DNA from: Atrina japonica
Taxonomy: Eukaryota > Mollusca > Bivalvia > Pterioida > Pinnidae
Direction of reading: 5' to 3'
DNA length: 64,000 nt
NCBI GenBank assembly: GCA_030159075.1
Contig: BROG01000239.1
Span: forward strand, 62,001 to 126,000
In this document: positions 1 to 45,033 of the stretch, piece by piece
Numbering within the stretch: position 1 is the first letter of the stretch
Layout of the letters: each line of letters starts with the position of its first letter
Program-made: the position numbers and the translations under genes
The notes under the pieces: model-generated
What the model was told of the DNA's origin: nothing
Database searches by the model: none
What the model saw: the letters and a program-made list of their open reading frames with translations, nothing else

Positions 1-34
1 CCAAAGCAACTGCAAGAATTAGCAAGGAACGCAT
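1..34 (-). CDS. Gene Z exon 1, signal peptide (cut by window edge)
   Basis: Minus-strand start codon at 34-32, then a hydrophobic start reading MRSLLILAVAL that runs off the left edge. The sequence and its upstream flank match exon 1 of gene A at 6992-7034. The donor site and the cysteine exon would lie left of the window. By homology with genes A-C this is the first exon of another copy of the 12-cysteine secreted peptide. No coding exon 2 is visible for it here, so whether the gene is intact is unknown. Confidence 0.7.
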   Translation of the reverse strand, partial: MRSLLILAVAL

Positions 35-850
35 TTTGATGGTCGTTCAGTTGTGAGAAGTGAAGGGAAACTGCTGAAAAATTCTAGAATATGTTATATT
101 TATACATTAAAGTACGCACCTACTAAACGAATCATTTAGATAACCATGTTCGTTTGTCATGACCGCATGACATTCAAAACTGAAAGTCAAAGACAAACTA
201 TTGATAAAAGATAAACGGGAATTCAACGACAAACTTATAGTTTATTTTCGATTTGCAGAGCTGATGAACCCAGTATAACATGAAAAATTAACATGAGGTA
301 AATAAATTTTGCCTAGGTTTGTAAGGTGTATAAGGATTTCTTTTTAGTAGAAAAACAAAAACTTGTCCACATACATCTTTAAAAGATACCCGCTAGACAG
401 AGGCAAATGGGAGGTAAATCCTGTAATCCGCAAGTATGGAATATGGGAACAACTGTTATGGCAAATTTCAGTAGTTTTTATGATAAAATGTCATTGCGGA
501 TATTGGCTGATAGGGGTTTAATTCCACGTGTTGTAATTTTCACGATTTTCTGTTTCTTGGGACGATTGCGGATATTTTTTAATCCGCGGAGCAGGAATTC
601 TTTAGTGACACCAGGCCCTGCAAACACAGCCCATAATATATTGTGTACATATATTATTCCATTAAAAAGCTATTTACTGTTTATTAAATTCACGAAATGA
701 ATATAGGGAATATTATGACCGCGAGTTATTTTCTCATTGTACAGTGCCGTATTTAATTATTAGTTCAACGGTTGTATACACCCCTCTACAGAAGGTGTTA
801 ACAAGCAAAATTGAATGTCCAAATCTATTGGTTTGTTTAGTTAATTGATT
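35..850 (-). repeat. Upstream flank of gene Z, duplicated at 7035-7830
   Basis: About 800 bases upstream of exon 1 of gene Z align closely by eye with the bases upstream of gene A at 7035-7830, with small indels. The shared block extends well past the putative promoter, so the duplication carried the regulatory region. No gene is seen in it; the 97-residue frame at 407-700 is not kept in the other copy. Confidence 0.6.
97..104 (-). promoter_or_regulatory. TATA box of gene Z
   Basis: Minus strand reads TATAAATA about 63 bases before the start codon at 34. The same box lies at the same distance before gene B (24085-24092). Gene A has a weaker version, and gene C has lost it. Confidence 0.5.
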
Positions 851-854
851 TCGT

Positions 855-1020
855 ACGGCACCCTCGACACTTTTTCGGTTATATGGTGCCGGCTATGTTT
901 TAATTGTGGAGGAGAGGACCCGATTACAGTGTATCCTGGGTAGGTCCTTCGGCTTTCTCAAAGTAATTTGGTAAAATGTCTCACAATATCAGCGGGTCTC
1001 AAACATGTTCTGACAAACGG
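855..1020 (-). mobile_element. SINE fragment (minus)
   Basis: Contains the complement of a tail related to the LINE 3' end (GGTTATATGGTGCC, compare 58741-58790) and, further right, a tRNA B-box-like stretch (GCGGGTCTCAAAC). A close relative lies at 9585-9725. Ends are not clear. Confidence 0.45.
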
Positions 1021-1329
1021 CGAGAGAACCCACTCTGTATATTGTTAACAGTTTACTAAAATTACTATGAAACCAATAGAATGTTTTTCCACCGTTTTCT
1101 GCCCGGATACGCTTTTTCAGCACCGTATCATACCTAAGTACTGTAGATATTACAAATCCACTAGTATTGTTGAAAAGATCATTTCATTTACGTTCATTTA
1201 CAACGTCCTCTCTTACTAATGACAAACAAGTCTTTATATATTTTTGAAAACAGAAATGTCAAGAAATATTTTTTTTTTATTTTTCAAAGCAAATTTAATT
1301 ATATTTGGGGGCCGTGTAGTTAGACTTTC

Positions 1330-1445
1330 ATTGATTGTTGTTTTACACACACCCAAGAATATTTCACTTATCTGGAGATGTCACCAGCTTTAGGTGAAGT
1401 GATACAAATTATGGCCTGTGCTATGGACTGACGTTAATGAGGTTT
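1330..1445 (-). mobile_element. SINE 3' fragment (minus)
   Basis: Reads as the complement of the SINE tail seen complete at 49850-50000: a gagtgaaatattc-like core and a gttaaacaaca-like tail. The tRNA-like head is missing. Confidence 0.45.
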
Positions 1446-1467
1446 CTTTCACGTGCCACGCCTTCCG

Positions 1468-1685
1468 CGACATGGGACCGCCGAGTGGTTAGACCCATCA
1501 CACTTTAACCCATGACGTATCTTACTTCTGGCCAGCACAGGTTTCAGACCCGTTGAAACATAAATTGATTTTGTGAGAAAGTTTGCCATTTTACTTGCGG
1601 AAGGCCGGTGGTCCCTTTTACAGGTACCACCACATAACTGAAACATTGTTGAGTGTTACGTAAAGCACTTATCAAAATCAAAAAT
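1468..1685 (+). mobile_element. tRNA-derived SINE with LINE-like tail
   Basis: An A-box-like GAGTGGTTAGA near 1484 and a B-box-like GGTTTCAGACCC near 1550 suggest a tRNA-derived head. The tail CCACCACATAACTGAAAC near 1627 resembles the 3' end of the LINE at 58735-58790. Target-site duplications were not found. Confidence 0.5.
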
Positions 1686-1949
1686 TAATTTGTAAATATA
1701 CTTAGGTTAATATCAGTCTGGAACCAAAGTATTTTGAAATCTTAACGATCGCCTTGAGTATTTGTATTGTTATTTTGTCTTGGCAAAATTTTAACTTTGT
1801 TATCATTGTAATCATTTACTTGTTACACAATGCAATAATTCCGCAAACCCTTTATCTTACAGAACAGGAAACACTTTTTGACTCTTAAGACCCATATATT
1901 CCTTTACAGACAATAATAGCGTAAACAACTCGTCATGTTACTACTTTGT

Positions 1950-2280: not shown

Positions 2281-2289
2281 TCAATTTTT

Positions 2290-2760
2290 ACTAAAAACAC
2301 AGAGGGGAAATGAACAACTAAGCCTTCCGACAAACACGACTTTCGGCTTTAAATATGAATTTTCCATATATAAGTAGTGATATCCCACAATTATCCGCAT
2401 ATGGAGTTTAAATTTCACAGATGATCTGATATGCCAGGGCGTATGCAACATATGAACATTTCATGAACAGAGGTAAATTACTCACTGACAAATTATTGAT
2501 ACAGGGATATCGAGAACACGGAACTCTGGAAATCCTAGAGTTGTGATCAAGTACCGCGGAGAAGAAAACATCGCCAGTTAACCGGTCACACTCGCCGAGA
2601 GTCCACAGTCAAATCCAAAAGAAGTGAGCAACAAAACCTCGTAATCATTGGTAGAGACGTCTCAACATCCACCATCAAACGGTACAGACGTCAAATAAAC
2701 AAAACAGCAACTTTTAAACGGTCAATATTTCTTAAAGTTGATATCGAAATCAAAATACCG
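2290..2760 (+). pseudogene. Degenerate Penelope-like RT C-terminus and tail
   Basis: Bases match the C-terminal RT segment seen more fully at 47150-47480 (the DKRDDFGFP region to the end) followed by the characteristic 3' tail. Stops and frameshifts run throughout. Related relics lie at 10170-10700 and 33790-34270. Confidence 0.55.
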
Positions 2761-2839
2761 GTAGATGTTTAATTTCGGAAGACGAAGGGCAACATTCAAT
2801 ACCAAAATGTACTGTCAAAGAGTAAAACACAGAACAAAC

Positions 2840-2913
2840 TTTTTATTATTATCGTATTCCATTCTGTACATTTCATTTCTTAAGGTATGGAAATCACATG
2901 GACTTTCAATGGT
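2840..2913 (-). CDS. Gene A exon 3: last codons, stop and 3' UTR
   Basis: Acceptor TTCTTACAG ends at 2914 on the minus strand. The first two bases complete a split codon to His, followed by CAT (His) and the stop TGA at 2908-2906. The following bases carry AATAAA (complement at 2842-2847), so this is a terminal exon that is mostly 3' UTR. The same arrangement recurs at 13280, 36820 and 38183, and inverted at 28232. Phase matches the donor of exon 2 at 4205. The 3' end is approximate. Confidence 0.7.
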
Positions 2914-4204
2914 CTGTAAGAAATATAAATAAAATGAATTAACATGGAAATGTTCAACTGCAATATTTCATTCAATGCATGAATAAATAATAAGATAGAT
3001 AAATGAATAAAACTATCATGAATCAGTGTAGGTTACTACAACAAATTATGATGTAAATGGTGTTAAGTAAAAGTATGATTAAGACATATTTTGGGTACTC
3101 CAATCATTTGTTTTATTGACAAGACAATCATAAGTATGACCAAGTTAATGTGAATGATGAAAGATACTTAATAGTAATGTGTTTTCTATTTAGTCACAAC
3201 CAGAAGTTTTACAAAAAATCTACATCACTATAGTCAGATAATGAAGGTTGAGTGACTTCAGGCCTGGTATCAATGATTGAGTGATTGATACGAAAGCCTA
3301 AAATATAAATTGTAAAACGATGTCAATTCCAATATTGGAGTTGGAAATTCCAATACAAAGTTAGCTTTTCAAATTTTAAAAGTTGGAATGTCCAAGAGTA
3401 AAGTTGATTTTCCGTCAGTAAAGTTGGAATAAAGGGAAAACGAAAAATAAATAAATTACAATGACTAATACGCATCCGTAGATTAGAGCTCCTTGCCTGA
3501 CCACTATTTTTACAGAACGCATGGGCTTGAGACTGGATTGAATCCATGCTGCTTATGAGAGAGATATTAACGCATTGTTGTCTTATCAAAAACCACAACA
3601 GATTTTTGTCAAAGTGGAGTTTGTCCTTTTTGTATATACTGGATGTTTGCAGAGAAAAATGCAAATACGAGACTAAAACGATTAGTAACGTATGCCTCAC
3701 CTTGAACATTTGGTCAAAAGAAAATAGGAACACACGCTTTTCTATAAAAAAAAAATCTTTACATTTAGTTCACATTAAAATATTGGAACAACCTATCAAA
3801 GAAAAATGGCAAATAAATTATCTTCATGTATATTTTTACTACCTGCTTTAGAACTTGTGTGTCGGGACTACGTTAAAAGGCTTCAAACGGCAAATATAGG
3901 TCTATCATGGTAAAGTTGTATTTCCGGGTTCTATCCAAAACTAAACAGTACGTTCTATTTTCCAACATATTGTCTTGCACGGATTCCATGCATGACTTGG
4001 ACACTAATATTTTTATGTCCAAAAGTAGCCCGTCACCCCTGTTCCATTTTTAATTTTGATTCGATGCTTTTAAACATGTGCTAGAGCTACACGCGACCTT
4101 CATAGCATACGGTAATTGGTAAAGTAGGAAATCGCGTGCAAATATATTTTTACAAAATTGCAAGATTTTTTTCTGGCTGAAATCTGTATATTGAGCATAC
4201 TCAC
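2914..4204 (-). other. Gene A intron 2
   Basis: About 1.3 kb, bounded by a GTGAGT donor and a TTCTTACAG acceptor. It is shorter than intron 2 of genes B (3.0 kb) and C (2.45 kb) and lacks the foldback element present in both. It includes short imperfect repeats of an AAGTTGGAA motif around 3320-3430, also present at 15440-15550 and 39720-39840. Frames here are not conserved between copies. Confidence 0.6.
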
Positions 4205-4390
4205 GACAATGACAGACGCCATTGTGATCACAATGTCCCACAACATTATTGTTACATGTACAGTGTTCTCCCCCGTGATGACAAGAATTGTGACAATCAC
4301 AGTGTCCATCATGACATGCTCCATCACTGCCATCTTGACAAAATCCATGACAGTCGTCATCCGTAGAACAAGCGTCGTCTTGTGCCATGG
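4205..4390 (-). CDS. Gene A exon 2: 12-Cys, His-rich secreted peptide
   Basis: A 186-base exon between a TTGTAG acceptor and a GTGAGT donor, in phase with exon 1 at 6992 and exon 3 at 2913, for a 78-residue precursor. The exon encodes 61 residues with Cys at exon positions 7, 13, 17, 25, 30, 32, 36, 43, 45, 53, 59 and 61, and ten His; exon 3 adds two more His. The first six Cys follow C-x5-C-x3-C-x7-C-x4-C-x-C, the spacing of CS-alpha-beta (defensin-type) folds. The second six are C-x6-C-x-C-x7-C-x5-C-x-C, a looser echo. Asp-rich and acidic, unlike typical cationic defensins. With the signal peptide it should be secreted. The role is inferred only: defence peptide or metal-binding protein. 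Splicing replaces the in-frame ATG at 4388 as the start. Confidence 0.75.
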
Positions 4391-5152
4391 CTACAACTTA
4401 AAATTTTCAAATAGATTATTAATGGCGTTTTGATAAAATGTCTTTGTTGTGTTTTTAACTGTAAAAGCATTACCTTGTTATAAACTTGCATCTCCTATTA
4501 ATTTATTGGGTAGTAAGCATCCTCTTGCTGCTGGTCGCATATTCAAAGGGTCTTTATCTGTGTTTACCCCAAAAACTTCGATACACAAATAACAAATAAG
4601 ACCTATACACGGACATAAAAATTTTTATGTTCTTATATATTTTGTAAAAATAATGCCATATCCAGTGCGGTATGCATGCATAGAAATAGTAAAGCAAATA
4701 ATTGCCATATTATTCTCAAGCGATTCTCACAAACTATACAGTAATCTAAGAACTTTATGTCTGTGTATATCATCTTTTTGTTATTGTATATCAATCTAAG
4801 TAGTTTTTTTTTCGGAAAAAAGCTATGACCCCTTTAAGGTAAAACAATATGTTCAGAATTGGATGAGTTATATGTCCTTGGAGTTAGATACATGTTAAAA
4901 TTCTTTGATAATGTGAATTTGCATTTGAACGTTAAGGCAAGAAAAGACTTAAAACTGTAGTCCAAGTCAAATTATATGAAAAAATTCAGTTATTTTGTAA
5001 AGAAACAAATCATCAATCAAGATAAAAGCATGTTTACTGATATCGAGAAAAAATAGTATTTTTTTTTAAACATAATACCAAATTCAAACTATTCACTATT
5101 TGGCGTAATAGAAGTGTTAAATATATATTATAAACATAATACCAAAGTTATA

Positions 5153-6991: not shown

Positions 6992-7034
6992 CAATGCACA
7001 CCAAAGCAACTGCAATGATCAGCAAGGAACGCAT
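6992..7034 (-). CDS. Gene A exon 1: signal peptide
   Basis: ATG at 7034-7032, then MRSLLIIAVALVCI and one base of a split codon before a GTAAGT donor. Joined in phase to exon 2 at 4390, the split codon becomes Ala. A basic residue, a hydrophobic core and a small residue form a standard secretory signal. Homologous exons lie at 1-34, 23978-24020 and 44991-45033, all 43 coding bases where complete. The upstream TATA element is weak (TATAAC near 7099). Confidence 0.75.
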
Positions 7035-7834: not shown

Positions 7835-8070
7835 CACCGAGCCTGCCTAGCTCAGTCGGTAGCGCACTCGACTCTTGATCGTGAGGTCGTAAGTTCGAGT
7901 CCAGCCGGCGGCATGTCGGTTTCCTGTATTTCGGATGAGACAGTAAAAATCGAGGTCCCCTTTATACCAGTAGGTGTCGGCACGTTAAAGCGATATGAGC
8001 TGTCGTATTCCCATAGTCTATCCCAAATAATTTTTGTCTGTTGATTTTGGCTGATTAAAGTAAAATGGTT
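7835..8070 (+). mobile_element. tRNA-derived SINE, alternative 3' part
   Basis: Starts with a tRNA-like head: A box TAGCTCAGTCGGTAG and B box AGTTCGAGTCC. The next part matches the SINE at 49710, up to the GGCACGTTAAAG motif near 7979. After that it diverges to a different tail, so it is a distinct subfamily or a chimera. Some mispairing in the anticodon stem argues against a working tRNA. Confidence 0.65.
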
Positions 8071-8079
8071 GGTACCTAC

Positions 8080-9430: not shown

Positions 9431-9439
9431 AAATAATAA

Positions 9440-9580: not shown

Positions 9581-9584
9581 TTGT

Positions 9585-11389: not shown

Positions 11390-12490
11390 ATCTCATATAC
11401 TAAAGTATAAATCAATAGAATGTCCAGGACATAGATACAAATCCGATAAAAATGGACAGACACTGACCTCAGAAAACCAAGCGGTGGGATCAGGTGCCAT
11501 GGAGGAGTAAGCATCCCTGTCGACCGGTCACACCCGCCCCAATGAAATACGTGAGGAGTGAATCCTCACCACAATTGGTACAGACGTCTCAACAACCGCC
11601 AACGAAAAGGCAACTCAACATTTCAGTTAGTGAAAAAGTAATCGCAAACAAGACAATTATACCGACCATAAAATTTGCGAACGTTGACATTGAACGCGGT
11701 TTGCCATATTCCTGTGTCAATAATTTGTCAGTGAGTAGTTTACCTCTGTATATGAAATCTTCACATGTTGTACACGCCCTGGCATATTGGATCATTTGTG
11801 AAGTATAAACTGATTATGTGGGTGGCTGAGGGATATTACTACTTAAATGTGGAAAATTTACGAATGGAAAGCCGAAAACGTCACGTTTGTCGTATAACTT
11901 AGTTGCCAATTTCCCGTCTGTGTCTATGTTAAGTAAAATGTCTAAGTATGAAGCGTGTGTGCTTGATTCTATTGCATCTTTAATTTCTAGTTCGCTTGGA
12001 TATTTCGCATTGACATATGTATGAAAATCGTCATTATTAATCGACAAAACGTCGTCGATATATCTAAATGTCAAATTAAATGACTCCGTTAACGTTTTCT
12101 TCTTTTGATTCAGCAGTTTTTGAAGTCTGCTTCGTATGAAAAAAGGAACAGGTCGTCCAATAAAGGGGCACAAATGGTTCCCATAGGAATGTTGACAGTT
12201 TGTTGAAAGACCACGTCTCCGAATATTACAAATATATTGTCTATTACAAATTCCAGTAATGGATAAATTGACGTGACGTGACCAAATATGCCATTTTCTT
12301 CACAAAAAACCGTAAAAAATATCTTCTTTACCGGGAAATATAAAAGGAAGAGTGCATGAAGCTTATTTGAAAATAAAATATATGTCATGCCCGATGAAAG
12401 CGTTTTTATCGATGTGAAGTGCATACTTGATAGATATATTTAAAATCTGGGAGAAAGCATGTTTTCCCGGACTTAAGTAAATCTTCATGA
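11390..12490 (-). pseudogene. Penelope-like RT, C-terminal two thirds and tail
   Basis: Minus-strand pieces keep IPMGTICAPLLDDLF (RT motif B region) near 12180, FRYIDDVLSINN (catalytic motif C, YIDD) near 12060 and the downstream DKRD and RACTTCEDF blocks, ending at about 11589. The non-coding tail runs on to about 11390. Frameshifts at about 12130 and 11800 break the frame. Motif layout fits Penelope-like or a related RT; no GIY-YIG endonuclease is seen. Near-copy at 34970-36030. Confidence 0.75.
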
Positions 12491-13040: not shown

Positions 13041-13204
13041 ATACCAAAGTCATGGTATGGTATAAAAGCAACTTATAAAAGGTCAATATTTCTTCAGTTA
13101 ATATCGAAATCAAAATAGTGGTAATTGTTTAATTTTTAATTTCGAAAGAGAAGGACGGATATTTTATACTAAAATGTATTGTCAAAGATTAAAACACAAA
13201 ACAA

Positions 13205-13280
13205 ACTTTTTATTAGTATCGTATTCCATTTTGTACATTTCATTTATAAAGGTATGGGAATCACATGGCCTTTCAATGAT
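13205..13280 (-). CDS. Gene B exon 3: last codons, stop and 3' UTR
   Basis: Acceptor TTTTACAG before 13280. The exon completes the split codon as His, then has His and TGA at 13275-13273. An AATAAA signal lies at 13209-13214 on the minus strand. In phase with the exon 2 donor at 16276. Confidence 0.7.
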
Positions 13281-13778: not shown

Positions 13779-16275
13779 GTTTTCATATGCCGTAATAGCT
13801 CTGTTTTGACACGAGAAGTAGTTCTCTTTTCTGATTGCAAATACTAAATGAAATTAAGGTTTAATTTCTTTTTATATCATTTTGAAAGAAACTAGTGATA
13901 TGGACAATTTTGAATACTTATTCTCAGATTTAATTCGCGATTATTCATATTCGACCATTTAATATTGGTGGTTAAATGTGTCAGAAGATAGTTGCCCGAA
14001 TGGGCCGTGTGCAAATGACTGAAAGGCCTACCATTTGGAAAGCAACAAATTATCGTTGTTTACAACAATTTTTTGTTTGAATTCTGATTTTTATCAGAAG
14101 AATACACCACAGAAAGTGTGAGTGTGACTGTTAATATTCGTTCATGACAACTGGAAGTAGCCATTTTATTTGATATTTTACCATTTGCGGAATCAGCTTT
14201 TAAATGACGTGAACTGTGAAGGCGTGCCGATTTTGTAAGTAGACCCATTTCAGTATATAGGCTGGAGGTAGCCATTCTACTGTACTTGACATTTTTACCA
14301 ATCGCTGAATCAGCTGGGGAAATGCCTTATCGGTGATGTTTTCGTAAGTATTTCAGTATATAGGCTAGTCCACTAGCAAAAACTTGAAATCAATTGAATC
14401 AAGACAAATGCCAATTATGTTGTGAAATAACAAACATTTATTTGTCTGTTTAAAAGATAATTATCGACACCTTCATTATGGAAAATCCGTGTAGGCCAAG
14501 GCTATAAAGTATATGTCGTTGTTATGGCTGTTATGTAGGTCAATTCAAACTTCAGTATTTACCAGCTGATCTATTTGATGTATTTTATAATGCAAACACG
14601 ATAGGTCTAAGTATATAATATAGAGTATTCCGTCAATTTACTGAGAAACCTATGAACACTATTTATTCTCAGCATTATCATTACAGGTTGTAACCTAGCA
14701 AATATAGGATCTGAGGTGAAATGGGAACCGATTTACACGATGCGAGTGACAAATTGTCTCTGACAGGAATATATGGTGACGGCAAAGCAAGCTGTTTATC
14801 AGAGATGCTTGACAAAAATGCACTAGATCTAACTCTCCTTTTTCTGTTTAACTTACAAGCAACGCAACTACGAAGTGAACTTTCATTTCTGTGACCTGTG
14901 TTTCTTTTCATAACATTACCTAGATGCAATATGAGCATGCACAGTGTGCTACAGATGCAGGCCTAGTCTTGTGTGTTCGATTTCTTTCTGTGATTTTTGT
15001 TTGTTTTGTGGTATTGAATGGTTTTTAAGATGAAATAAAAAATACAAAATTAATGTGTGTTATTTTATTCTTTATTGATTCATTCATATGTTCAGAGAAG
15101 ATTTGCCCGAGGAATACATGGCCATGGAAAGGATTTCTAAAATGTAATGTATTCCTACGCTAAAAAGTAAAGCGGTTAAATGCTTGGGTCACGCGACGAC
15201 TGACTTGTGTAATTTAAAATTTAAATATTTAGTTCAGTCGTTCTATATACCTGCAATGAAGGAAATAGCAGTCGGTATGTAAATATTAGTAATGTGTCGT
15301 ATTAGTCACAACAAGAAGTTTTACAAAAAAAACTACATCACTATTGTCAGATAATGAAGGTTGAGTGACTTCAGGCCTGGTCTAAAATGATTGAGTGATT
15401 GATAGGAAGGAAATCCTAAAATATAAATTGTAAAACGATGTTAAATTTCAATATTGGAGTTGGAAATTCCAATACAAAGTTAGCTTTTCAAATTTAAAAG
15501 TTGGAATATCCAAGAGTAAACTTGATTTTCCATAACAGTAAAGTTAGAAAAATGGAGTAAAGCTAGGAAAACCAAAAATATATAAATTATAATGATTTAA
15601 TACGCATCCGTGGATCTGATCTCCTTGCCTGACCACTATTTGTATAGACGCGTAGACTTGAGACTGGATTGAATCCATGCTGCTTATGAGAGAAATATTA
15701 ACGCATTGTTGTCTTAAATGAATTGAATTAGAAATGAAGGATAAAACAGATTTTTGTCAAAGTGGAGTTTGTCCTTTTTGTAGATACTCGATGCTTGAGA
15801 GAAAATTGCAAATACGAGACTAAAACGACTTGTAACGTATGCCTCACCTTGAGCATTTGGTCAAAAGAAAATAGGAACACGCGCTTGTCTATGAAAAAAA
15901 TCTTTACATTCAAATAGATTATCCCCATGTATTTACTACCTGTTTTGGGGCGTATGTGTTGGGACATTTCTAAAGCTTCAAACGGAAAGTATAGGTCTAC
16001 CATGGTACGTTGGCATATCCGGGTTTTATCCAAAACAAAACAATCCGTTCTGTTTTCCAATAATAGGTCGTATACATAAAAGATATTGCCTTGACACTAT
16101 TATTTTTATGTCCAAAATTGACCTTTTACCTTTATTTATATTTGATTCTTTGTTTGTAAACAAGTGCCAATTTACATTGTTAGATAGCAAACGGTAATTG
16201 ATAGAGTAGGAAATTTGTTGTAAATATATTTGTAGAGAGCACAAGATTTTTTCCGCACTGAAAAAGCATACTCAC

Positions 16276-16461
16276 GGCAATGGCAGACGCCATTGTGATC
16301 ACAATGTCCCACAACATTATTGTTGCATGTACAGTGTTCTCCCCCGTGATGACAAGAACCGTGACAATCACAGTGTCCATTATGACATGCTCCATCACTG
16401 CCATCTTGACAAAATCCATGACAGTCGCCATCCGTTGAACAAGCGTCGTCTTGTGCCATGG
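16276..16461 (-). CDS. Gene B exon 2: 12-Cys, His-rich secreted peptide
   Basis: Same 186-base exon as in gene A: TTGTAG acceptor, GTGAGT donor and 61 residues with all 12 Cys in the same places. Three residue changes against gene A at exon positions 11 (Asp to Gly), 27 (Asp to Asn) and 34 (Asn to Gly). By eye, about four base changes are silent and four change the residue. With exon 1 at 23978-24020 and exon 3 at 13280 it gives a 78-residue precursor. Function unknown; secreted by its signal peptide. Intact in every visible respect. Confidence 0.75.
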
Positions 16462-23977: not shown

Positions 23978-24020
23978 CAATATACACCAAAGCAACTGCA
24001 AAGATTAGCAAGGAACGCAT
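23978..24020 (-). CDS. Gene B exon 1: signal peptide
   Basis: ATG at 24020-24018, MRSLLIFAVALVYI, one base of a split codon, then a GTAAGT donor. In phase with exon 2 at 16461. A TATAAATA box lies about 65 bases upstream at 24085-24092. Confidence 0.7.
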
Positions 24021-26204: not shown

Positions 26205-27899
26205 TTATAGCCCTTTACGTACAACGCATTCCGCGACACAAGGCCTCGGTTTTCAATCTTATTGGAAAAACTGTGCGCTCTACCACTTGACTACCACAAG
26301 CGATGTGTATGTTATACGGGTCAAAGAATTACTGAACTTTAGAGCAGGTTTTACCGCAAGTATTTGATTGAAGACCGACCAACCTTGTTTGAATGTAATA
26401 CTGTACAGGTACTTTTTTCATTTTATTTACATACCGACTGTAATTTCCTTCACTACAGTTATACAGAACGACCGTATTGTTGTATCAATAAAACCAGTGT
26501 GCAATCAGGTGATCTAAGTGTAAACCGCTAGCTGGCGTAGGGATACCTGAATATCTAAGAAACCCTTTCCATGACCATGTTACCTCAACGATTTGTCAGA
26601 CAAGTATTCTCTGAACATATGAATGAATCAATAAAGAATAAAATAACACACATTCATTCTATATTTTTATTTAAAGCCATTTATTATCACAGAACAAACA
26701 AAAATCTCTGAAAGAAATAGAAAACACGAGACTAGGCCTGCATCTGTAGCACACTGTGCATGCCCATATCATAAGCCTATTGCGATATATCTAGGTCAAA
26801 AGAATTCAAAATGAAAAGAAACACAGGCCACGGAAATGAAAATGTGCTTCGTAGTTACGTTGCTTGTAAGTGAGGTGAAAAGGGTGTCACGTCTAGTGCA
26901 ATTTGTCCTACATCTCTGATGCTTGCTTTACCGCCACTGTATAGGCTATTCCTGTCAGAAACAATTCGTCACTCGCACCACGTGAAATGCACTCTCAGTT
27001 CACCTCAAATGCTATTAATTGCTAGGCTAGATACAAGGCACATCTTGTTTTTCACAACCTGTAATGTTATTTCCGAGTGTAAGTAGTGTTCATAGGTCTC
27101 TCAGTAAATTGACGGGATACTCTATCTCGTAAAAACTGAAGTCTGAATTGACATATGGATCTATTATACTTTATACGCCTACACGGATTTTCCATAACGA
27201 AAGTGTCGATAATTATCTTTTAAAATGAAAAATAAAAGTTTGTTATTTCACAACATAATCTGCATTTGTTTTGTTTCGATTGATTTGAATTATTTGCTAG
27301 CGGGCTAGCCTATATACTGAAATGGGTCTACTTACAAAATTGTCACGCCATCACAGTTCACGGCATTTAAAAGCTGATTCCGCGATTGCTAAAATATCAA
27401 ATATAATGGCTGCTTCCAGTTGTTATGAATGAATATTAGCAGTCACACTCAAACTTTCTGTGGTATATTCCACTGATAAAATATCAGAAGTCAAACGAAA
27501 ATTTGTTGTAAACAACGATCATCTGTTGCTATTCAAATCGCACATGGTAGGCCTATCAGCCATTTCCACACGGCCCATTTGGGCAATTCTCTTCTGACAC
27601 ATTTAATCCGCCACTACTAAATGGTCGAATATTAAAAATTGCGAACTAAATCTGAGAATAAGTATTCAAAATTGCCCATATCAATAGTTTCTTTCAAAAT
27701 GACAAAAAAAAGAAATTAAACCTCAATTTCATTAGTATTTGCGATTAGAAAAGAGAACTACTTCTCATGTCAAAACAGCTTTTGAGCTATTACGTCATAC
27801 GAAAACACCCCCCCCCCCCGCAAAGTCAGTGTAATGGAATGTATTAAGTATCCAATGGACTACAGTTTCACTGAAAAATGGTAATGTTTATAAATATAA

Positions 27900-28022
27900 A
27901 GATTGTTTTTCATTTTTTGAACATCATCGGGGTATAAATGCAATTCGTGCTGCAAAGAATCTTTTCCATGAGCAATTGCTTTTATATCCCGATGATGTTC
28001 AAAAAATGGAAGACAATCCTTA
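27900..28022. repeat. Foldback, shorter copy
   Basis: Arms around 27900-27945 and 27980-28022 form the same inverted repeat as at 13517-13670, with a shortened loop. Ends AAGATTG and CAATCCTT. Confidence 0.65.
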
Positions 28023-28231
28023 ATAAAGTAGCTTTCATCATTACTTTAACTTGGTCATACTTATGATTGTCTTGTCAATAAAACAAATGATTGGAGTACA
28101 CAAAATATGTCTTAATAATATTTTTACTTAACATCGATTTATGATAGCTTTTTATTCATTTATTCACACATTGAATGAAATATTGCTGTTGACCATTTCC
28201 ATGTTAATTAATTTTGTTTCTTTTTTTATAG

Positions 28232-28300
28232 ATCATTGAAAGGCCATGTGATTCCCATGGAATGTATAGAATGGAATACGATACTAATAAAAAGTTTGCT
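28232..28300 (+). pseudogene. Orphan copy of peptide-gene exon 3
   Basis: Acceptor TTTTTTTATAG just before 28232, then the same start as exon 3 of gene B with TGA at 28237-28239 and AATAAA at 28286-28291. No exon 1 or 2 lies upstream on this strand, so it is a fragment carried by the inverted duplication. Confidence 0.6.
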
Positions 28301-28429
28301 TTGTGTTTTACTCTTTGACAATACATTTTCTCTTTCGAAATTAGAAATTAAACAATTACCGATATTTTGATTTCGATATCAACTGACGAAGTATTGGCCT
28401 TTTATAAGTTGCTTTTTTACCATAACATG

Positions 28430-29385
28430 ACTTTGGTATTGTGTTTATTTGACGTCTGTACCATTCAGAGGTGGATGTTGAGACGTCTGTAGCAATGTAA
28501 AGAGGTTTTGCTTCTTACTTACCTCATTTGGATTGGACTGTGGACTCATGGCGGATGTGACCAGTTAACTGGCGATGCAATCACATCCCCGGTATCTGAT
28601 CTCAGCTTCTAGGATTTCCAGAGGTCCGTGGTCTATAAATGATTGCAAAGAAATTATGACAATATACTTAAGTCCGGGGAAATATGCTTTCTCCCAGATA
28701 TTTCACATTTCCATCAAGTGTGCACTTCACATCAATAAAAACTCTTTCATTCTATCAGGTATGATATATATTTTATTTTCAAATAAGCTTCATGCAATCT
28801 TCCTTTTATATTTCCCTGAAAAGAAGATATTTTTACGGTTTTTTGTGACGAAAATGACATATTTGGTCACATCACTTCATCCATCACTGGAATTTTCAAT
28901 AGACAATATATTTGTAATGTTCGGAGACTTGGTTTTTCAACAAAATGTCGGCATTCCAATGGGAACCAATTGTGCACCTTTATTGGCCGACCTGTTCCTT
29001 TATTCATACAAAGCATACTTCATGCAGACACTGCTGAATCAAAAGAAGAAAATGTTAGCGGTGTCCTTTAATATGACATTAAGATATATCGATGACGTTT
29101 TGTCAATGAATAATGACAATACTTAGACATTTTACTTAATATAGACACAGACGGGAAAATTGCAATTAAGCTATTCGACAAATGCGACGATGTCGGCTTT
29201 CCCATCGTAAATTATCAACATTTAGGTAGTAATATCCCTTGGTCATTCGCAAATGGAGTTCATATTTCACAAATGATCCGATATGCCAGGGTGTGTACAA
29301 CATATGAAGATTTTATATACAGAGGTAAACTACTCACTGACAAATTGTTGACACAGGGATACCGAAAACCGCATTTAATGTATGA
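28430..29385 (+). pseudogene. Penelope-like RT fragment with upstream tail
   Basis: A retroelement tail block (28430-28640) precedes an RT piece with VGIPMGTNCAPLLADLFLYS near 28950 (motif B) and LRYIDDVLSMNND near 29085 (motif C). About 100 bases are missing after 29125. The C-terminal blocks continue to about 29380 with frame changes, where an inverted junction follows. Confidence 0.7.
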
Positions 29386-34969: not shown

Positions 34970-36050
34970 CTCAGATACCAAAGTATAAATCAATAAAATA
35001 TCCAGGACATAGATACAAATCCGGTAAAAATGGACAAACACGGATCCCTGAAAACCAAGAGGTGGGATCAAGTGCCATGGAGGAATAAGCATCCCCTGTC
35101 GACCGGTCACACCCGCCGTGAGACCACAGTCAAGTCCAATGAAATACGTGAGGAGTGAATCCTCACCACAATTGGTACAGATGTCTCAACAACCGCCAAC
35201 GAAAAGGGAACTCAACATTTCACTTAGTGAAACAGAGTAATCGCAAACAAGACGATTATACCGACCATAAAATTTCCGAACGTTGACATTAAACGCGGTT
35301 TTCGATATCCCGATGTGTCAATAATCTGTCAGTGAGTAGTTTACCTCTGTATATGAAATCTTCATATGTTGTTCACGCCCTAGTATATCGGATCATTTGT
35401 GAAATATAAACTCCATATGTGGGTGACTGAGGGATATTACTACTTAAATGTGGAAAATTTACGATGGGAAAATCGAAATCGTCTCGTTTATCGTATAGCT
35501 TAGTTGCCAATTTCCCGTCTGTGTCTATATTAAGTAAAATGTCAAAGTTTGAAGCGTGTGTGCTTGATTCTGTTGTATCTTTAATTACTAGTTCGCTGGG
35601 ATATATTGCATTGACATATGTATGAAAATTGTCATTATAAATTGACAAAACGTCGTCGATATATCTAAATGTCAAATTAAAGGACACCGCTAACTTTTTC
35701 TTCTTTTGATTCAGCAGTTTCTGAAATCTTCTTCGTATGAATAAAGGAACAGGTCAGCCAATAAAGGGGCACAATTGGTTCCCATAGGAATGTTGAGTTT
35801 GTTGAAAGACCACGTCTCCGAACATTACAAATATATTGTCTATTAGAAATTCCAGTAGTGGATAAAGTGACGTGACCAAATTTGCCATTTTCTTCACAAA
35901 AAAATAAAATATATGTCATACCTGATAAAATAAACGCGTTTTTATCTATGTGAAGTGCATACTTGATAGAAATGTGAAATATCTGGGAGAAAGCATATTT
36001 TCCCCCGGACTTCAGTATATCGTCATTATTCTTTTTTTTTTGCAATCATC
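34970..36050 (-). pseudogene. Penelope-like RT, C-terminal two thirds
   Basis: Tail at 34970-35220. The RT has RACTTYEDF-type blocks to about 35373, an open stretch 35373-35687 with FRYIDDVLSIYND (motif C), and the motif-B region near 35770 in another frame. It continues upstream to about 36030. Frameshifts at about 35690 and 35800. Counterpart of 11390-12490. Confidence 0.75.
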
Positions 36051-37044
36051 TATAGACGTGTCTTTGTTTTTAAAAAGTCATCCCCTGATTAGTCTCCTGA
36101 TGTATTAGTTTAATTCATAGGGCATGTAACTTAGTCCCACTTTAATGTTTGAACTTTCAATGTTGTTTTACACATGTTACATACTGTTATTGCTGGGGGA
36201 GAATCTGGCTTCAAGACCATGGGCCTTACGCAAATAAACCGGCAAACGTTCTCCGAAAAATAAGCTTAGGTTCTAGCGGGAACCTGTGCTGAGGAGAAGT
36301 GAAATATTTTATGGTTCAAATATAAAAATTTCAGATACCAAAGTATAAATCTTCAGGATATCCTGGAGACAAATACAAATCTGATCAATATTGAACAAAC
36401 ACGGACCTCTGGAAATCATAGAAGTTGGGATCAGATACCGGGGAGGAGAAAGCATCGCCAGTTAACCGGTCACATCCGCCGTGAGTCCACAGTCAAATCC
36501 AAATGAAGAATCAAAACCTCGTTACAATTAGTACAGACGTCTCAACATCCACCATCGACCGGTACAGACGTCAAATAAACATAATACCAAAGTCATGGTA
36601 TGGTAAAAAGCAACTTATAAAAGGTCAATATTTCTTCAGTTGATATCGAAATGAAAATATCGGTAATTGTTTAATTTTTAATTTCGAACGAGAAAAACGG
36701 ACATTTTATACCATAAAGTATTGTCAAAGAGTAAAACACAAAAAACCTTTTATTATTATCGTGTTCCATTCTGTACATTTCATTTATTAAGGTATTGGAA
36801 TCACATGGCCTTTCAATGATCTGTAAAAATATAAATAACATTGATTATAACGTGGAAATGGTCAACAGAAATATTACATTCAATGTGTGAATAAATAAAT
36901 AAAAAGCTATCATAAATCAGTGTAGGTTACTACAACAAATTATGATGTAAATGGTGTTAAGTAAAAGTATGATTAAGACATATTTTGGGTACTCCAATCA
37001 TTTGTTTTATTGACAAGACAATCATAAGTATGACCAAGTTAAAA
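35678..37044. repeat. Recent tandem duplication, unit 1
   Basis: 1367 bases directly followed by a near-identical unit (37045-38407). The only differences I saw are a few bases and short length changes in A or T runs. The unit spans the RT motif-B part, a tail, and exon 3 of the peptide gene. Confidence 0.85.
36745..36820 (-). pseudogene. Extra copy of gene C exon 3
   Basis: Identical acceptor, His codons, TGA and AATAAA to the copy at 38183, created by the tandem duplication. It lies further downstream of exon 2 than the other copy, so the nearer copy would probably be used first. Confidence 0.6.
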
Positions 37045-38407
37045 TAAAGGACACCGCTAACTTTTTCTTCTTTTGATTCAGCAGTTTCTGAAATCTTCTT
37101 CGTATGAATAAAGGAACAGGTCAGCCAATAAAGGGGCACAATTGGTTCCCATAGGAATACTGAGTTTGTTGAAAGACCACGTCTCCGAACATTACAAATA
37201 TATTGTCTATTAGAAATTCCAGTAGTGGATAAAGTGACGTGACCAAATTTGCCATTTTCTTCACAAAAAAATAAAATATATGTCATACCTGATAAAATAA
37301 ACGCGTTTTTATCTATGTGAAGTGCATACTTGATAGAAATGTGAAATATCTGGGAGAAAGCATATTTTCCCCCGGACTTCAGTATATCGTCATTATTCTT
37401 TTTTTGCAATCATCTATAGACGTGTCTTTGTTTCAAAAAGTCATCCCCTGATTAGTCTCCTGATGTATTAGTTTAATTCATAGGGCATGTAACTTAGTCC
37501 CACTTTAATGTTTGAACTTTCAATGTTGTTTTACACATGTTACATACTGTTATTGCTGGGGGAGAATCTGGCTTCAAGACCATGGGCCTTACGCAAATAA
37601 ACCGGCAAACGTTCTCCCGAAAATAAGCTTAGGTTCTAGCGGGAACCTGTGCTGAGGAGAAGTGAAATATTTTATGGTTCAAATATAAAAATTTCAGATA
37701 CCAAAGTATAAATCTTCAGGATATCCTGGAGACAAATACAAATCTGATCAATATTGAACAAACACGGACCTCTGGAAATCATAGAAGTTGGGATCAGATA
37801 CCGGGGAGGAGAAAGCATCGCCAGTTAACCGGTCACATCCGCCGTGAGTCCACAGTCAAATCCAAATGAAGAATCAAAACCTCGTTACAATTAGTACAGA
37901 CGTCTCAACATCCACCATCGACCGGTACAGACGTCAAATAAACATAATACCAAAGTCATGGTATGGTAAAAAGCAACTTATAAAAGGTCAATATTTCTTC
38001 AGTTGATATCGAAATGAAAATATCGGTAATTGTTTAATTTTTAATTTCGAACGAGAAAAACGGACATTTTATACCATAAAGTATTGTCAAAGAGTAAAAC
38101 ACAAAAAACCTTTTATTATTATCGTGTTCCATTCTGTACATTTCATTTATTAAGGTATTGGAATCACATGGCCTTTCAATGATCTGTAAAAATATAAATA
38201 ACATTAATTATAACGTGGAAATGGTCAACAGAAATATTACATTCAATGTGTGAATAAATAAATAAAAAGCTATCATAAATCAGTGTAGGTTACTACAACA
38301 AATTATGATGTAAATGGTGTTAAGTAAAAGTATGATTAAGACATATTTTGGGTACTCCAATCATTTGTTTTATTGACAAGACAATCATAAGTATGACCAA
38401 GTTAAAA
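37045..38407. repeat. Recent tandem duplication, unit 2
   Basis: Second unit. The junction GTTAAAATAAAGG at about 37038-37050 joins intron 2 sequence directly to RT sequence, which defines the duplication end. Near identity to unit 1 shows a recent event, or an assembly artefact. Confidence 0.85.
38108..38183 (-). CDS. Gene C exon 3: last codons, stop and 3' UTR
   Basis: Acceptor TTTTTACAG before 38183. The exon completes a His codon, then has His and TGA at 38178-38176, and AATAAA near 38112-38117 on the minus strand. In phase with the exon 2 donor at 40634. Confidence 0.65.
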
Positions 38408-40633
38408 AAATGATGAAAGATACTTTATTAAGGATTGTTTTCCAGTTTTTTTTAACATCATCGGGGTATAAAAGCAATTGCTCGTGGAAAAAATTCTGTG
38501 CAGCACTAAGTGCTACAAAATGACATTTTCCCATGAGCAATTGCTTTTATACCCCGATGATGTTCAAAATATGAAAAAACAATCCTTAAATTTATATACA
38601 TTACCATTTTTCATTGAAACTGTAGTCCACTAGATACTAAATTCATTCCAGAATAATGACTTTGCGAGGGTGTTTTCATATGACGTAATATCTCAACAGC
38701 TGTTTAGACATGAGAAGTAGTTCTCTTTTCTGATCGCAAAGTCTAAATGAAATTAAGGTTTAATTTCTTTTTTATATCATTTTGAAAGAAACTAGTGATA
38801 TGGAGAATTTTGAATACTTATTCTCAGATTTAGTTCGCGATTTATAATATTCGACGATTTAATAGTGGCGGGTTAAATGTGTCAGAAGAGAATTGCCCGA
38901 ACAGATGATCGTTGTTTACAACAAATTTTCATTTGAATTCTGATATTTTATCAGTGAAATACACCAAAGAAAGTTTGAGTGTGACTGCTAATATTCGTTC
39001 ATGACAACTGGAGGAAGCCATTCTGCTGTACTTGACAATTTTACCAATCGCTGAATCAGCTGGGAAATTCCGTATCGGTGTTTTTTTCGTAAGTATTTCA
39101 GTATATAGGCTAGCCCACTAGCAAATCCTTGAAATCAATTGAATCAAGACAAATGCTGATTATGTTGTGAAATAACAAACTGTTATTTGTCTGTTTAAAA
39201 GATAATTATCAACACCTTTGTTATGGAAAATCCATGTAGGCCTAGACCTAGATATATGGGTATGTACAGTGTGCTACAGATGCAGGCCTGGTCTTGTGTT
39301 TTCGATTTCTTTCTGTGGTTTTTGTTTGTTTTATGGTATCGAATGGCTTTTAAGATTAAAAAAAGTACGAAATGAATTGCGTTATTTTATTCTTTATTGA
39401 TTCATTCATATGTTCAGAGAAGATTTTTCCGAGAGATACAAGGGTGACGGAAAGGATGTCTAAAATGTTATGTATTCCTACGCTAAAAAGTAAAGCCGTT
39501 AAACGCTTGGGTCATGCGACGACGGACTTGTGTTATTGAAATATGAATACAGTCATTCTATATACTTGCAATGAAGGAAATAGCAGTCGGTATGTAAATA
39601 TTAGTAATGTATTTCCTGTTTAGTCACAACCAGATGTTTTACAAAAAAAATACATCACTATAGTCAGATAATGAATCAATGACTGAGTGAGTGATAGGGA
39701 AGCCTAGAATATAAATTGTAAAACGATGTCAATTCCAATACTGGAGTTGCAAATTCCAATACAAAGTTTTTTAGATTTTAAAAGTTGGAATGTCCACGAG
39801 TAAAGTTTATTTTTCATTAGTAAAGTTAGAAAGTTGGAATAAAGCTGGGAATAAGAAAAATGAATAAATTACAATGACTCTAATACGCATCCGTAGATTT
39901 GAGCTCCTTGCCTGACCATCATTTTTATAGAACGCGTGGACTTGAGACTGAATTGAATCCATGCTGCTTATGAGAGAGATATTAACGCATTGTTGTCTTA
40001 TCAAAAAACCACATAAATGAATTGAATTAGAAATGAAGTATATAACAGATTTTTGTCAAAGTGAAGTTTGTCCTTTTTGTAGATAGTGGATGCTTGCAGA
40101 GAAAAATGCAAATACGAGACTAAAACGACTAGTAACATATGCCTCACCTTGAGCATTTGGTCGAAAGAAAATAGGAACACACGCTTTTCTATGAAACAAA
40201 TCTTTACATTCAGTTCACATTAAAATATTGGAAAACCTATAAAAGGAAATGTCAAATAGATTATCTCCATGTATTTTACTACCTGCTTTAGAACTTATGT
40301 GTTGGTACAGTTCAAACTTCAAATCTTCAAACGGCAAGCATAGGTCTACCATGGTACTTTTATCATTGTATCCAAAACAAAACAGTTCGTTCTGTTTTCC
40401 AATAATAGGTCGTATAGATAAAACATATTGCCTTGACACTAATATTTTTATGTCCAAAAGTGGCCTGTCACGTCTATTTATATTTGATTCTTTGTTTGTA
40501 AACAAGTACCAATTTACATTGTTAGACCTACACGTGACCTTTATAGCAAACGGTAATTGAAAAGTAGGAAATTTGTTGAAAATATATTTATACAAATCAC
40601 AAGATTTCTTCTGCACTGAAAAAGCATACTTAC
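38184..40633 (-). other. Gene C intron 2
   Basis: 2.45 kb with a GTAAGT donor (GTGAGT in A and B). It holds the foldback and blocks colinear with intron 2 of gene B. The 14.1-14.9 kb part of gene B is partly deleted here. Confidence 0.55.
38434..38585. repeat. Intronic foldback in gene C intron 2
   Basis: Arms begin AAGGATTGTTTTCC and end AACAATCCTT. The same loop with GTGCAGCACTAAGTGCTAC as in gene B. Flanking TTA at the left and TTAA at the right are compatible with a short target duplication. Confidence 0.75.
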
Positions 40634-40819
40634 GGCAATGGCAGACGCCATTGTGATCACAATGTCCCACAACATTATTGTTACATGTACAGTGTTCTTC
40701 CCCGAGATGACAAGAACTGTGACAATCACAGTGTCCATTATGACATACTCCATCACTGCCATCTTGACAAAATCCAAAACAGTCGTCATCCGTAGAACAA
40801 GCGTCGTTTTGTGCCATGG
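40634..40819 (-). CDS. Gene C exon 2: 12-Cys, His-rich secreted peptide
   Basis: 186 bases, TTGTAG acceptor and GTAAGT donor. All 12 Cys are kept. Seven residues differ from gene A: exon positions 4 (Asp to Asn), 14 (His to Phe), 24 (Ala to Val), 27 (Asp to Asn), 34 (Asn to Ser), 38 (His to Leu) and 40 (Gly to Glu). By eye, eight of ten base changes alter the residue, and none touches a Cys. Two His of the His-rich set are lost. Reading on past the donor gives a longer open frame, but the conserved donor and exon 3 make that unlikely to be used. Confidence 0.75.
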
Positions 40820-42590: not shown

Positions 42591-42767
42591 ATAGACTCTT
42601 TCACGATAACTGAGGCCCTGTAACTTTGAGAGAATAAATGATACAGTTTCCCGGAAAATGACATCAAGAAAGAATCAGTTACTATAATGACGTCTATATT
42701 TTTGTGGGTATATGTATCATTTATTGTCTCAAAGTTACAGGAACGCAGTTATCGTGAAAGGGTCTAT
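42591..42767. repeat. Foldback MITE in gene C intron 1
   Basis: Terminal inverted repeats TAGACTCTTTCACGATAACT and its complement. TA on both sides. Same element as 18458-18634, so the insertion predates the B/C duplication. Confidence 0.75.
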
Positions 42768-43419
42768 TCTATCTATCGTTGCAATGACGATTTTTCTTTA
42801 GTTATTTAACAGTTATCAACATACGGATAGTGAAAGTAGGCCTTCTAAATAAAATTATTTTGTTAATGTGTACATATTTTCTTTTTTCTTTACTTCATTA
42901 TATCATATTTCTATTAACCCTTCTCTTTCTTTCTCTTTTATCCCCTATTATTTTATCTATTAGAGGCTAAGTCTTTCCTTCTTCCTCATTTACAAGAACA
43001 TGTTCACAATCTATGCTACCTTTGGTCATCAAGTCATTACGCAAATATCCGTACATACCAGTTATATTCAGCATGGAACTTTTTGGTAGCAAAGCTTAAA
43101 TAAATGTTTATTGTTAGATATTAAATAATGAGAGCATGATCTACTGAGGTCAGATGCACTAAATAGGGCCGGCTACTATTGACTTAAACACCAGAGGTAG
43201 AAATAGGACTCTTGAACAATCACATTTTGAATTATAACATTTTTGTTTAATTCTTCATTTGAGTATGATATTTTTTCATCTGATGCATATATGTATTTAA
43301 AATAAAAAAAAAATCAAAGAAAAAGTTAATAAATAAAACAGTGCTGGACATATTCACTTATACATGCCATGAATAATACACTTCTCTGTGACATTGTGTG
43401 TTTGTTACGGTTTCACTAA

Positions 43420-43680
43420 GTGAAATGTTGAGTTGCCTGTTATATGGCGGCTATTGAGATGTCTGCATCCATTGTGACAGGATTCGTTCCTCGCGTATTT
43501 CATTTTGATTTGACACAGCGGGCGTGACCGGTCGACAGGGGGTGCATACTCCTCCATGGCACCTAACCCCACTTTTTGAATTCCAGAGGTCCGTGTTTGT
43601 CCATTTTATACCAGATTTGTATTTATATCCTGGACATACTATAGATTTGTACTTTGGTATTTGAGATTCTTTTATATCCA
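43420..43680 (+). mobile_element. Retroelement 3' tail without RT
   Basis: Starts in the last RT codons (a SEMLSCL-like end near 43425) and continues through GACCGGTCGACAGGGG and CCAGAGGTCCGTGTTTG to the GGTATTTGAG end. The RT body is missing, so it is a strongly 5'-truncated insertion abutting the coding-like segment on its right. Confidence 0.6.
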
Positions 43681-43826
43681 AACACTAGCCTTGGTGTCTT
43701 CCTGGGTACATGCTTTCTGCCACCTGCCACCAGGACTTGAAAGGCATCAATTGCCTGTTCAGAAGCTCTTTCAGCTGCTTGTACAATAACATCTTCGTTG
43801 TTCTTGCTACATTTTATAACATTCAA
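43680..43826 (-). pseudogene. Unrecognised coding-like segment, copy 2
   Basis: Minus-strand block with AAERASEQAIDAFQVLVAGG and RKTPRL, the same segment as 19190-19354. The frame is kept between copies with a handful of conservative and non-conservative changes. No family recognised. Confidence 0.4.
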
Positions 43827-44016
43827 CCTCTATATTTAATTCCTAATGTTATAATAAGGCCACAGACCAAAGTATTTTGTTGACTGTACCATGGTATTGT
43901 TCAAATATATCATAAAGTGTTCTTCTACATTCTACATTTATAATCACATTTCTATCGGCAGCCATGTGCGTTCATTTTTTTTTTTTAAATAAAAAATATA
44001 AATAGAGTAAATTAGT

Positions 44017-44740
44017 TTGGCTATTCAATTACAGGTTTTGAGGTGCCTGGACATCAACCATCTTCTACACAAAACTGTCACATGTTCATGTGCGTCATCT
44101 CCTTTTAAATACAATCCTATCAGGCATGTCATCACCGGCGACGTTTCTATTGTTGGAAATGAAAGCCTCAAAAATCTTATTTTAAGGGACCCTAAAAACC
44201 AAGAAGCCCGTTCCTTTAATTGGCGTCAGAATTTCAGTTTAGTTATGAATTCTGTCGAAGATTATGCCAGACGATGGGCCAAACACGAAGACGTAGAACC
44301 AGACACTTTGTCTAAATGGCTAAAACCCACACGATGGTTGATCAAATCTCGTATTCGAAAACTTAAAGGGAATATGAAAACATGTTATCCCTCTGTATTT
44401 AGTGATCCAGAAGTAGTAAATGAACTGGATAGATTACATGACCAATATGTACTGCTACCAGCAGACAAAGCCTCCAATAATAGTTTTTATTTGTAAGGCA
44501 CATTGTTATAATTGTTTAGTATAAGAACTTGGATTTAATTCGAATTCTGGAAATCTTATATACACTCGTAGCTCACTTTCAAAGGACGAGATCCTTCAAA
44601 ATTACGTGTCCGTATTACGCTCATTTGATATACTTACAACGGATACCGATTTTGAGCTACCATATTTATATTGGATTCCTAAACTTCATAAAACCCCATA
44701 TAAGCAAAGATACATAGTAGGATCCAGCAAATCACTCCTC
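44017..44740 (+). pseudogene. Penelope-like RT, N-terminal part
   Basis: Open from 44017 to 44496, with a RRWAKHEDVEPDTLSKWL block and LLPADKASNN near 44455. After a frame change, 44606-44735 reads ELPYLYWIPKLHKTPYKQRY (early RT motifs). At 44733 it jumps to the 3' tail, deleting all catalytic motifs, so no RT activity is possible. It shows the intact target of the retrozyme insertion at 20621. Confidence 0.75.
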
Positions 44741-44940
44741 ACGTGTTTTATTGGACTTGACTGTGGACTCACGGCGGTTGTGACCGGTCGACAGGGGATG
44801 CTTACTCCTCCATGGCACCTGATCCCACCTCGTGGTTTCCAGAGGTCCGTGTTTGTCCATTTTTACCGGATTTGTATCTATGTCCTGGACATTCTATTGA
44901 TTTATACTTTTGTATCTGAGATTTTTTATATTATGTTTCT
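44735..44940 (+). mobile_element. Retroelement 3' tail
   Basis: Canonical tail with ACTCACGGCGGTTGTGACCG, CCTCCATGGCACCTGATCCC and CCGGATTTGTATCTATGTCC. It ends near 44930, 60 bases before gene C exon 1. Confidence 0.65.
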
Positions 44941-44990
44941 TTTTTGCAAAACTAAACCTGCTATATTATGTTTATGGTATTTAAACTTAC

Positions 44991-45033
44991 CAATATACGC
45001 CAAAGCAACTGCAAAGATTAGCAAGGAACGCAT
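44991..45033 (-). CDS. Gene C exon 1: signal peptide
   Basis: ATG at 45033-45031, MRSLLIFAVALAYI, one base of a split codon and a GTAAG donor. In phase with exon 2 at 40819. Upstream, the TATAAATA box of genes Z and B is missing: the stretch reads GTATAACTC after an apparent eight-base deletion near 45095. A retrozyme lies about 400 bases further upstream. Confidence 0.7.

Follow-up and report, generated by a model that had tools for sequence, protein, structure and literature searches.

We identified a tandem array of multi-exon genes for a small peptide rich in cysteine (Cys) and histidine (His) in the bivalve Atrina japonica (GenBank assembly GCA_030159075.1, contig BROG01000239.1, forward-strand positions 62,001 to 126,000). 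The window, that is, the whole 64,000-nucleotide stretch of DNA analysed, contains three complete genes plus the first part of a fourth, all on the minus strand. Along that strand gene C (45033 to 38183) comes first, followed by gene B (24020 to 13280) and gene A (7034 to 2913), with the start of gene 0 last (34, continuing beyond the window). An earlier note on this DNA had proposed such an array for a secreted peptide, and the analysis supports it, with secretion inferred from the signal peptide. The peptide is probably lineage-restricted and of a secreted Cys-rich kind already known, and its use of His in place of lysine (Lys) and arginine (Arg) is unusual. We tentatively propose, at somewhat less than an even chance, that it is a secreted, disulfide-rich acidic peptide in which the His serve to bind metal or to change the charge with acidity, with host defence as the most likely role.

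The features of the array are given below. Splice-site scores, here and throughout, come from a simple consensus matrix.

1 to 34, minus strand: gene 0, first 34 bases of the signal exon, off the window edge; 91–94% identity to the other three signal exons.
6992 to 7034, minus strand: gene A exon 1, coding part, signal peptide, phase 1 end; conserved donor, score 4.5.
4205 to 4390, minus strand: gene A exon 2, the 12-Cys exon, phase 1-1; placed by phase and copy comparison.
3701 to 3741, minus strand: gene A candidate exon 2b, 41 bases, reading QKRVFLFSFDQMFK after the Cys exon; strongest donor conserved in the three copies.
2714 to 2913, minus strand: gene A terminal exon (3′ end approximate), which gives His-His-stop when spliced to exon 2; best conserved acceptor, poly-A signal 66 bases in.
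23978 to 24020, minus strand: gene B exon 1, coding part; splice sites and copy comparison.
16276 to 16461, minus strand: gene B exon 2, the 12-Cys exon; splice sites and copy comparison.
15848 to 15888, minus strand: gene B candidate exon 2b (HKRVFLFSFDQMLK); 41-base block between conserved splice sites.
13081 to 13280, minus strand: gene B terminal exon, 3′ end approximate; acceptor and poly-A signal.
44991 to 45033, minus strand: gene C exon 1, coding part; splice sites and copy comparison.
40634 to 40819, minus strand: gene C exon 2, the 12-Cys exon (10 His in the product); splice sites and copy comparison.
40148 to 40188, minus strand: gene C candidate exon 2b (QKRVFLFSFDQMLK); 41-base block between conserved splice sites.
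37984 to 38183, minus strand: gene C terminal exon, 3′ end approximate; acceptor and poly-A signal.
36621 to 36820, minus strand: gene C terminal exon, second copy, within a tandem duplicate (about 1.37 kilobases, 99%); similarity.
28232 to 28431, plus strand: terminal exon in an inverted partial copy of the unit (26424 to 28630), where similarity revealed no Cys or signal exon.

The gene anatomy can be read directly from these copies. The signal exons (43 bases, the one at 1 to 34 being cut) and the 186-base Cys exons were reproduced with the coordinates, order and strand that the earlier note had given, as were the terminal exons beginning at 2913, 13280 and 38183. The coding part of exon 1 comprises 43 bases, ends in phase 1 and is followed by a GTAAGT donor. 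Exon 2 has 186 bases in phase 1-1, and its donor is GTGAGT in A and B and GTAAGT in C. GT donors and AG acceptors flank the signal and Cys exons of the array, and the splice signals and phases agree in all three complete genes, as had been claimed. The terminal exon has a good acceptor and gives His-His-stop when joined to exon 2; its poly-A signal, AATAAA or ATTAAA, lies 66 bases in. The first intron is 2601 (A), 7516 (B) and 4171 (C) bases long, and the second 1291, 2995 and 2450 bases. A TATAAA or TATAAC occurs 64–72 bases before the ATG in four of four copies (TATAAA at −70 in gene 0), so exon 1 probably has a short 5′ leader beyond its coding part.

The acceptor of exon 2 is weak (scores −2.5, −0.8 and −2.5 in A, B and C), so the start given for this exon is provisional. 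Use of an AAG lying six bases further upstream would lengthen the peptide by two residues in frame; an in-frame TAA stands directly before that AAG. The weak acceptor, together with an ATG in the context CCATGG at the start of the Cys exon, would also suit a cytosolic peptide that starts at this ATG, the signal exon being unjoined to the Cys exon. We regard this as highly improbable, as each unit has one signal exon, in order, whose donor is conserved and whose phase matches, and 38 of its 43 bases are the same in all three copies. The earlier note had expected frame-based annotation to miss the gene, which is true in part: the Cys exon lies inside an ATG-started open reading frame of 112 residues in A and 200 in C, but that frame lacks the signal.

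The spliced products (exon 1, exon 2 and terminal exon) are 78 residues long in A, B and C. The whole products contain 13 Cys and 12 His in A, 12 Cys and 12 His in B, and 12 Cys and 10 His in C. The 13th Cys of gene A sits in the signal, at residue 13; the earlier count of 12 Cys and 12 His for gene A was right in His and one Cys short once the signal is included. A signal cut after Ala-Met-Ala, placed by the usual −3,−1 rule, gives a predicted mature chain of 61 residues with 12 Cys, 10–12 His and no Lys or Arg, whose sole aromatic residues are one or two Phe. The Cys spacing is 5,3,7,4,1,3,6,1,7,5,1, with three CxC pairs and no CC pair. With all Cys taken as oxidised and the N-terminus as blocked, the computed charge is −10.3 (A), −8.3 (B) and −9.6 (C) at pH 7, and +5.2, +6.4 and +4.0 at pH 4. 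A Cys adjoins 9 of the 12 His in A and B and 8 of the 10 in C, and all 12 His of gene A lie within two residues of a Cys. When the His of gene A were shuffled among the non-Cys positions, 9 adjoining His were reached in 1.2% of trials (P 0.012).

The coding exons of the array keep their amino acids, more weakly in the A/C and B/C comparisons than in A/B. The gene units are segmental duplicates, with long stretches of intron and flank aligning at roughly 70–92%. Identity in the Cys exon was 95.7% (A/B), 94.6% (A/C) and 94.6% (B/C), versus 83.3%, 84.1% and 89.7% in 600-base flanks with gaps excluded (Fisher P 9e-7, 3e-5 and 0.02). The coding bases of exons 1 and 2 showed 6, 11 and 9 nonsynonymous differences in A/B, A/C and B/C, whereas the flank rate predicts 28.5, 27.2 and 17.5 (P 8e-8, 2e-4 and 0.016). 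Synonymous differences numbered 6, 4 and 2 (P against the flank rate 0.13, 0.035 and 0.055). Since nonsynonymous differences fall below the flank rate and synonymous ones less so, change is suppressed mainly, but not only, where it would alter the peptide. The ratio of nonsynonymous to synonymous rates (dN/dS, method NG86) weighs against such constraint: it was low only in A/B (0.032/0.174), middling in A/C (0.060/0.122) and near 1 in B/C (0.049/0.046). Gene C alone differs from A and B by six replacement and no silent codon changes, with two His lost; these are small numbers, and codon 49 differs in all three copies. Judging from these codons, gene C may be relaxing or shifting its role.

Exon 2 is not the sole conserved block, because the intron blocks 4451 to 4540, 3506 to 3760 and 3011 to 3115 reach about 87–93% three-way identity in 60-base windows, nearly the level of the Cys exon. 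Only the candidate exon 2b offers an explanation for these blocks. Two adjacent duplicates of about 1.37 kilobases (35671 to 37047 and 37038 to 38410) are 99% identical and each carry a gene C terminal exon; by their sequence they appear to be either a young duplication or an assembly duplicate. Inverted partial copies of intron 2 of the unit lie at 26424 to 28630 and 56990 to 58082. Only the first includes the 3′ region, and a similarity comparison found no signal or Cys exon in either.

The 3′ part of the gene has a second possible form. In intron 2 of all three genes, a 41-base block, exon 2b, stands between a T-rich acceptor ending in ATAG and a donor with AAG before the cut and GTGAGG after it. 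Spliced in as a fourth exon, after the Cys exon and before the terminal one, it would yield a precursor of 122–139 residues with the layout of mytimycin precursors: a signal, the 12-Cys domain, a Lys-Arg processing site and a cleaved C-terminal tail. The Cys domain would then run into Gln-Lys-Arg or His-Lys-Arg and the tail, with 122 residues in all for A and B and 139 for C. We consider this exon a real possibility, though one that falls a little short of even. Its donor scores 7.8 in three of three copies, the top of 117 conserved GT sites in the gene alignment; exon 1 (4.5) and exon 2 (2.2–3.0) have lower-scoring donors. Six donors of at least 7.7 were found on both strands of the window, three of them belonging to exon 2b; the three copies are homologous, however, so the donor strength counts as one event. 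The acceptor, T-rich as it is, scores 4.3, 0.6 and −0.8 in A, B and C and ranks just ninth of 75 conserved acceptors. Differences at codon positions 1, 2 and 3, summed over pairs, number 2, 0 and 6, which is coding-like, but each pair shows 1–2 replacement codons and the conservation extends past the 41 bases. The tail is open for 32 codons in A and B, a length with a chance of 0.05 by shuffling; in the tail frame, the terminal exon has no silent and 6–7 replacement codons per pair, which is not coding-like, and the tail of gene C shifts frame. Another conserved acceptor, at 3548 downstream of exon 2b, competes with this reading (scores 3.1, 3.4 and 3.1 in the three copies) and may belong to a further exon. 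A dibasic boundary and a C-terminal extension are reported for mytimycin in the available text of PMC8004829. Since exon 2b is conserved and has the stronger donor, direct joining of the Cys exon to the terminal exon is provisional, and with it the length of 78 residues and the ending in His-His. The alternative 3′ end is independent of function and fits every secreted reading.

Cys 1–6 follow the register C-x5-C-x3-C-x7-C-x4-C-x-C and, by sequence, weakly resemble the cysteine-stabilised alpha-beta (CS-alpha-beta) scaffold of scorpion potassium-channel toxins. The CS-alpha-beta framework is C..CxxxC..C..CxC, and the spacing 5,3,7,4,1 fits this Toxin_2 pattern. Pfam Toxin_2 matched two of the three copies (E 0.0024 and 0.025) and gave no match to the third. 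Nodulin_late matched the 78-residue product of A (E 0.0025), and all six matches of a PDB profile search were scorpion toxins or a nodule peptide. None of 10 Cys-preserving shuffles of the 61-residue exon product matched Pfam families of the Toxin_2/Nodulin_late type; for the scorpion-toxin and nodule chains of the PDB, none of three shuffles matched, versus three matches for copy C and one for A, searched singly. The 61-residue Cys-exon translation was also folded in silico; this translation begins two residues ahead of the predicted cut and omits the final two His. For the predicted fold, Foldseek returned a single weak match, a scorpion toxin (E 0.77). The Toxin_2 scores of 15.3 and 18.6 bits are below the gathering cutoff of 25.1, which speaks against the CS-alpha-beta part of the proposal. 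The array peptide shares with scorpion short toxins (Toxin_2) and with legume late nodulins and nodule Cys-rich peptides the Cys 1–6 register and weak matches, whereas it lies below the Pfam cutoffs, has His as its only basic residues and carries a second six-Cys half. This likeness is likely convergence.

The weak but consistent match that Cys 1–6 show to scorpion potassium-channel toxins would also be expected of a CS-alpha-beta-type channel blocker or protease inhibitor. Such toxins plug the pore with a basic residue, but the Cys domain of the array peptide has no Lys or Arg. In addition, a common fold proves no function and a further six-Cys half is present, and we hold this role to be very unlikely.

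We tentatively propose that the peptide acts in host defence as follows. Cleavage of the signal after Ala-Met-Ala would leave 61 residues, whose 12 Cys would form six disulfides. The N-terminal half would probably be CS-alpha-beta-like, and the C-terminal half would be a second Cys-rich module. The His beside Cys would be shown on a rigid core, where they could bind Zn or Cu and take protons in acid. The computed charge of the chain, which at pH 7 is about −8 to −10, would then turn positive at pH 4, reaching about +4 to +6. As His is the only kind of basic residue in the mature chain and mostly sits beside Cys, the peptide is likely to bind Zn or Cu and to change greatly in charge from pH 7 to pH 4–5. 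Defence may proceed by metal withholding or by acid-triggered action in mucus, gut or phagosome. The available text of PMC5198042 describes pH-dependent action for reduced mussel myticins and a His-containing peptide of another mollusc.

The 12 Cys and 10–12 His in 61 residues, with one or two Phe as the only aromatics, would also suit a secreted metal carrier or detoxifier with partly reduced Cys, like an extracellular metallothionein. This is unlikely: the signal peptide implies an oxidising route, and the Cys spacing holds just three CxC pairs. No metal-response element was found in 1 kilobase upstream of the four copies, and Pfam gave no metallothionein match at E up to 10, although weak matches above about 0.1 are mostly lost from the output of this tool. 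Even less probable is a structural peptide of the attachment thread, shell or mucus, cross-linked via Cys and His-metal bonds. A His- and Cys-rich composition would suit metal cross-linking, but the chain is short and non-repetitive; a text search of open papers found none with its peptide strings, and literature listings on mussel byssus and on Cys/His-rich peptides showed no evident match.

Known peptide families were compared with the array peptide by description. Mytimycin of mussels is a secreted Cys-rich multigene family, and in the variant studied most thoroughly the mature chain has 54 residues, 12 of them Cys; the family is usually cationic, with an isoelectric point mostly of 7–9, and has 10 invariable and 6 accessory Cys. 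It has an EF-hand in a C-terminal extension after a dibasic site, and a non-coding first exon (PMC8004829, available text). The array peptide resembles it as a secreted Cys-rich multigene family; it has 12 Cys in all three mature chains, and would share the dibasic Lys-Arg and the tail only if exon 2b is used. It differs in a mature chain without Lys or Arg, in its 10–12 His and in the coding part of its first exon. Mytimycin was set aside on charge, the mature chains of the array carrying −8.3 to −10.3 at pH 7 and no Lys or Arg. CRP-I of Mytilus, likewise a secreted Cys-rich multigene family, has a six-Cys C-C-CC-C-C array, a Lys-Arg or Arg-Arg cleavage site and its Cys region in exon 4, and its function is not established (PMC10138031, available text). 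The array peptide differs in having 12 Cys in the second exon and no CC pair, and CRP-I was set aside on this Cys pattern. In the available descriptions, theromyzin, clavanins and myticin C variously share His content, negative charge or pH-dependent action, and theromyzin and clavanins are classed as alpha-helical.

Searches for relatives agreed with the earlier note's remark that it knew of no named family with this make-up. No Pfam family matched the Cys region at its cutoff; there were sub-threshold matches only, including EpCAM_N to the second half alone (0.097). Among 5.8 billion proteins, one product as query gave no candidate sharing three 5-residue words, and three long models gave 33 candidates, none at E up to 1. 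The Cys pattern had 3 matches in viral contigs and 22 in prokaryote contigs, none of which was confirmed. These protein and contig collections are metagenomic, viral and prokaryotic and cover animals poorly, so the absence of homologues in them is weak evidence. A text search of 5.39 million open papers, a set without subscription papers, figures and supplements, gave no match to any of six peptide strings.

Other features were found in the window. Open reading frame fragments of a reverse-transcriptase-like retroelement, which we take to be Penelope-like, lie at 11814 to 12173, 21774 to 22097, 28575 to 29126, 35373 to 35687, 46241 to 46666 and 47038 to 47478, some with YIDDVLS. A Pfam scan of four of the six gave no match, and one fragment had 1540 relatives in the protein collection. 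A retroelement endonuclease domain lies at 63372 to 63890 (Pfam Exo_endo_phos_2, 1.1e-10). A tRNA-like match at 49711 to 49783 (Rfam, 32.4 bits) was not called by ARAGORN; the sequence around it is repeated at 7839 to 7990 (85%), and the two are probably a tRNA-derived short interspersed element. A 47-base tandem repeat of about 3 copies lies at 53413 to 53557, and a perfect TA run of 52.5 copies at 55647 to 55751.

Lineage-restricted secreted Cys-rich peptides are common in marine invertebrates, and one more such family is therefore no surprise in itself. The make-up of this one is unusual: the mature chain lacks Lys and Arg, and its His roughly match its Cys in number. It is conceivable, though on balance doubtful, that the array encodes a new family of secreted miniproteins, each built of a CS-alpha-beta-like unit and a second unit with six Cys, with disulfide-flanking His standing wholly in place of Lys and Arg. 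Such a peptide would act as an effector loaded with metal or switched by acid, its charge negative in body fluid and positive in acid compartments. Should the His prove functional, the array would be a compact case of metal- or acid-gated secreted defence, in which natural copies that differ in His number (12 in A and B, 10 in C) allow a direct test of what the His do.

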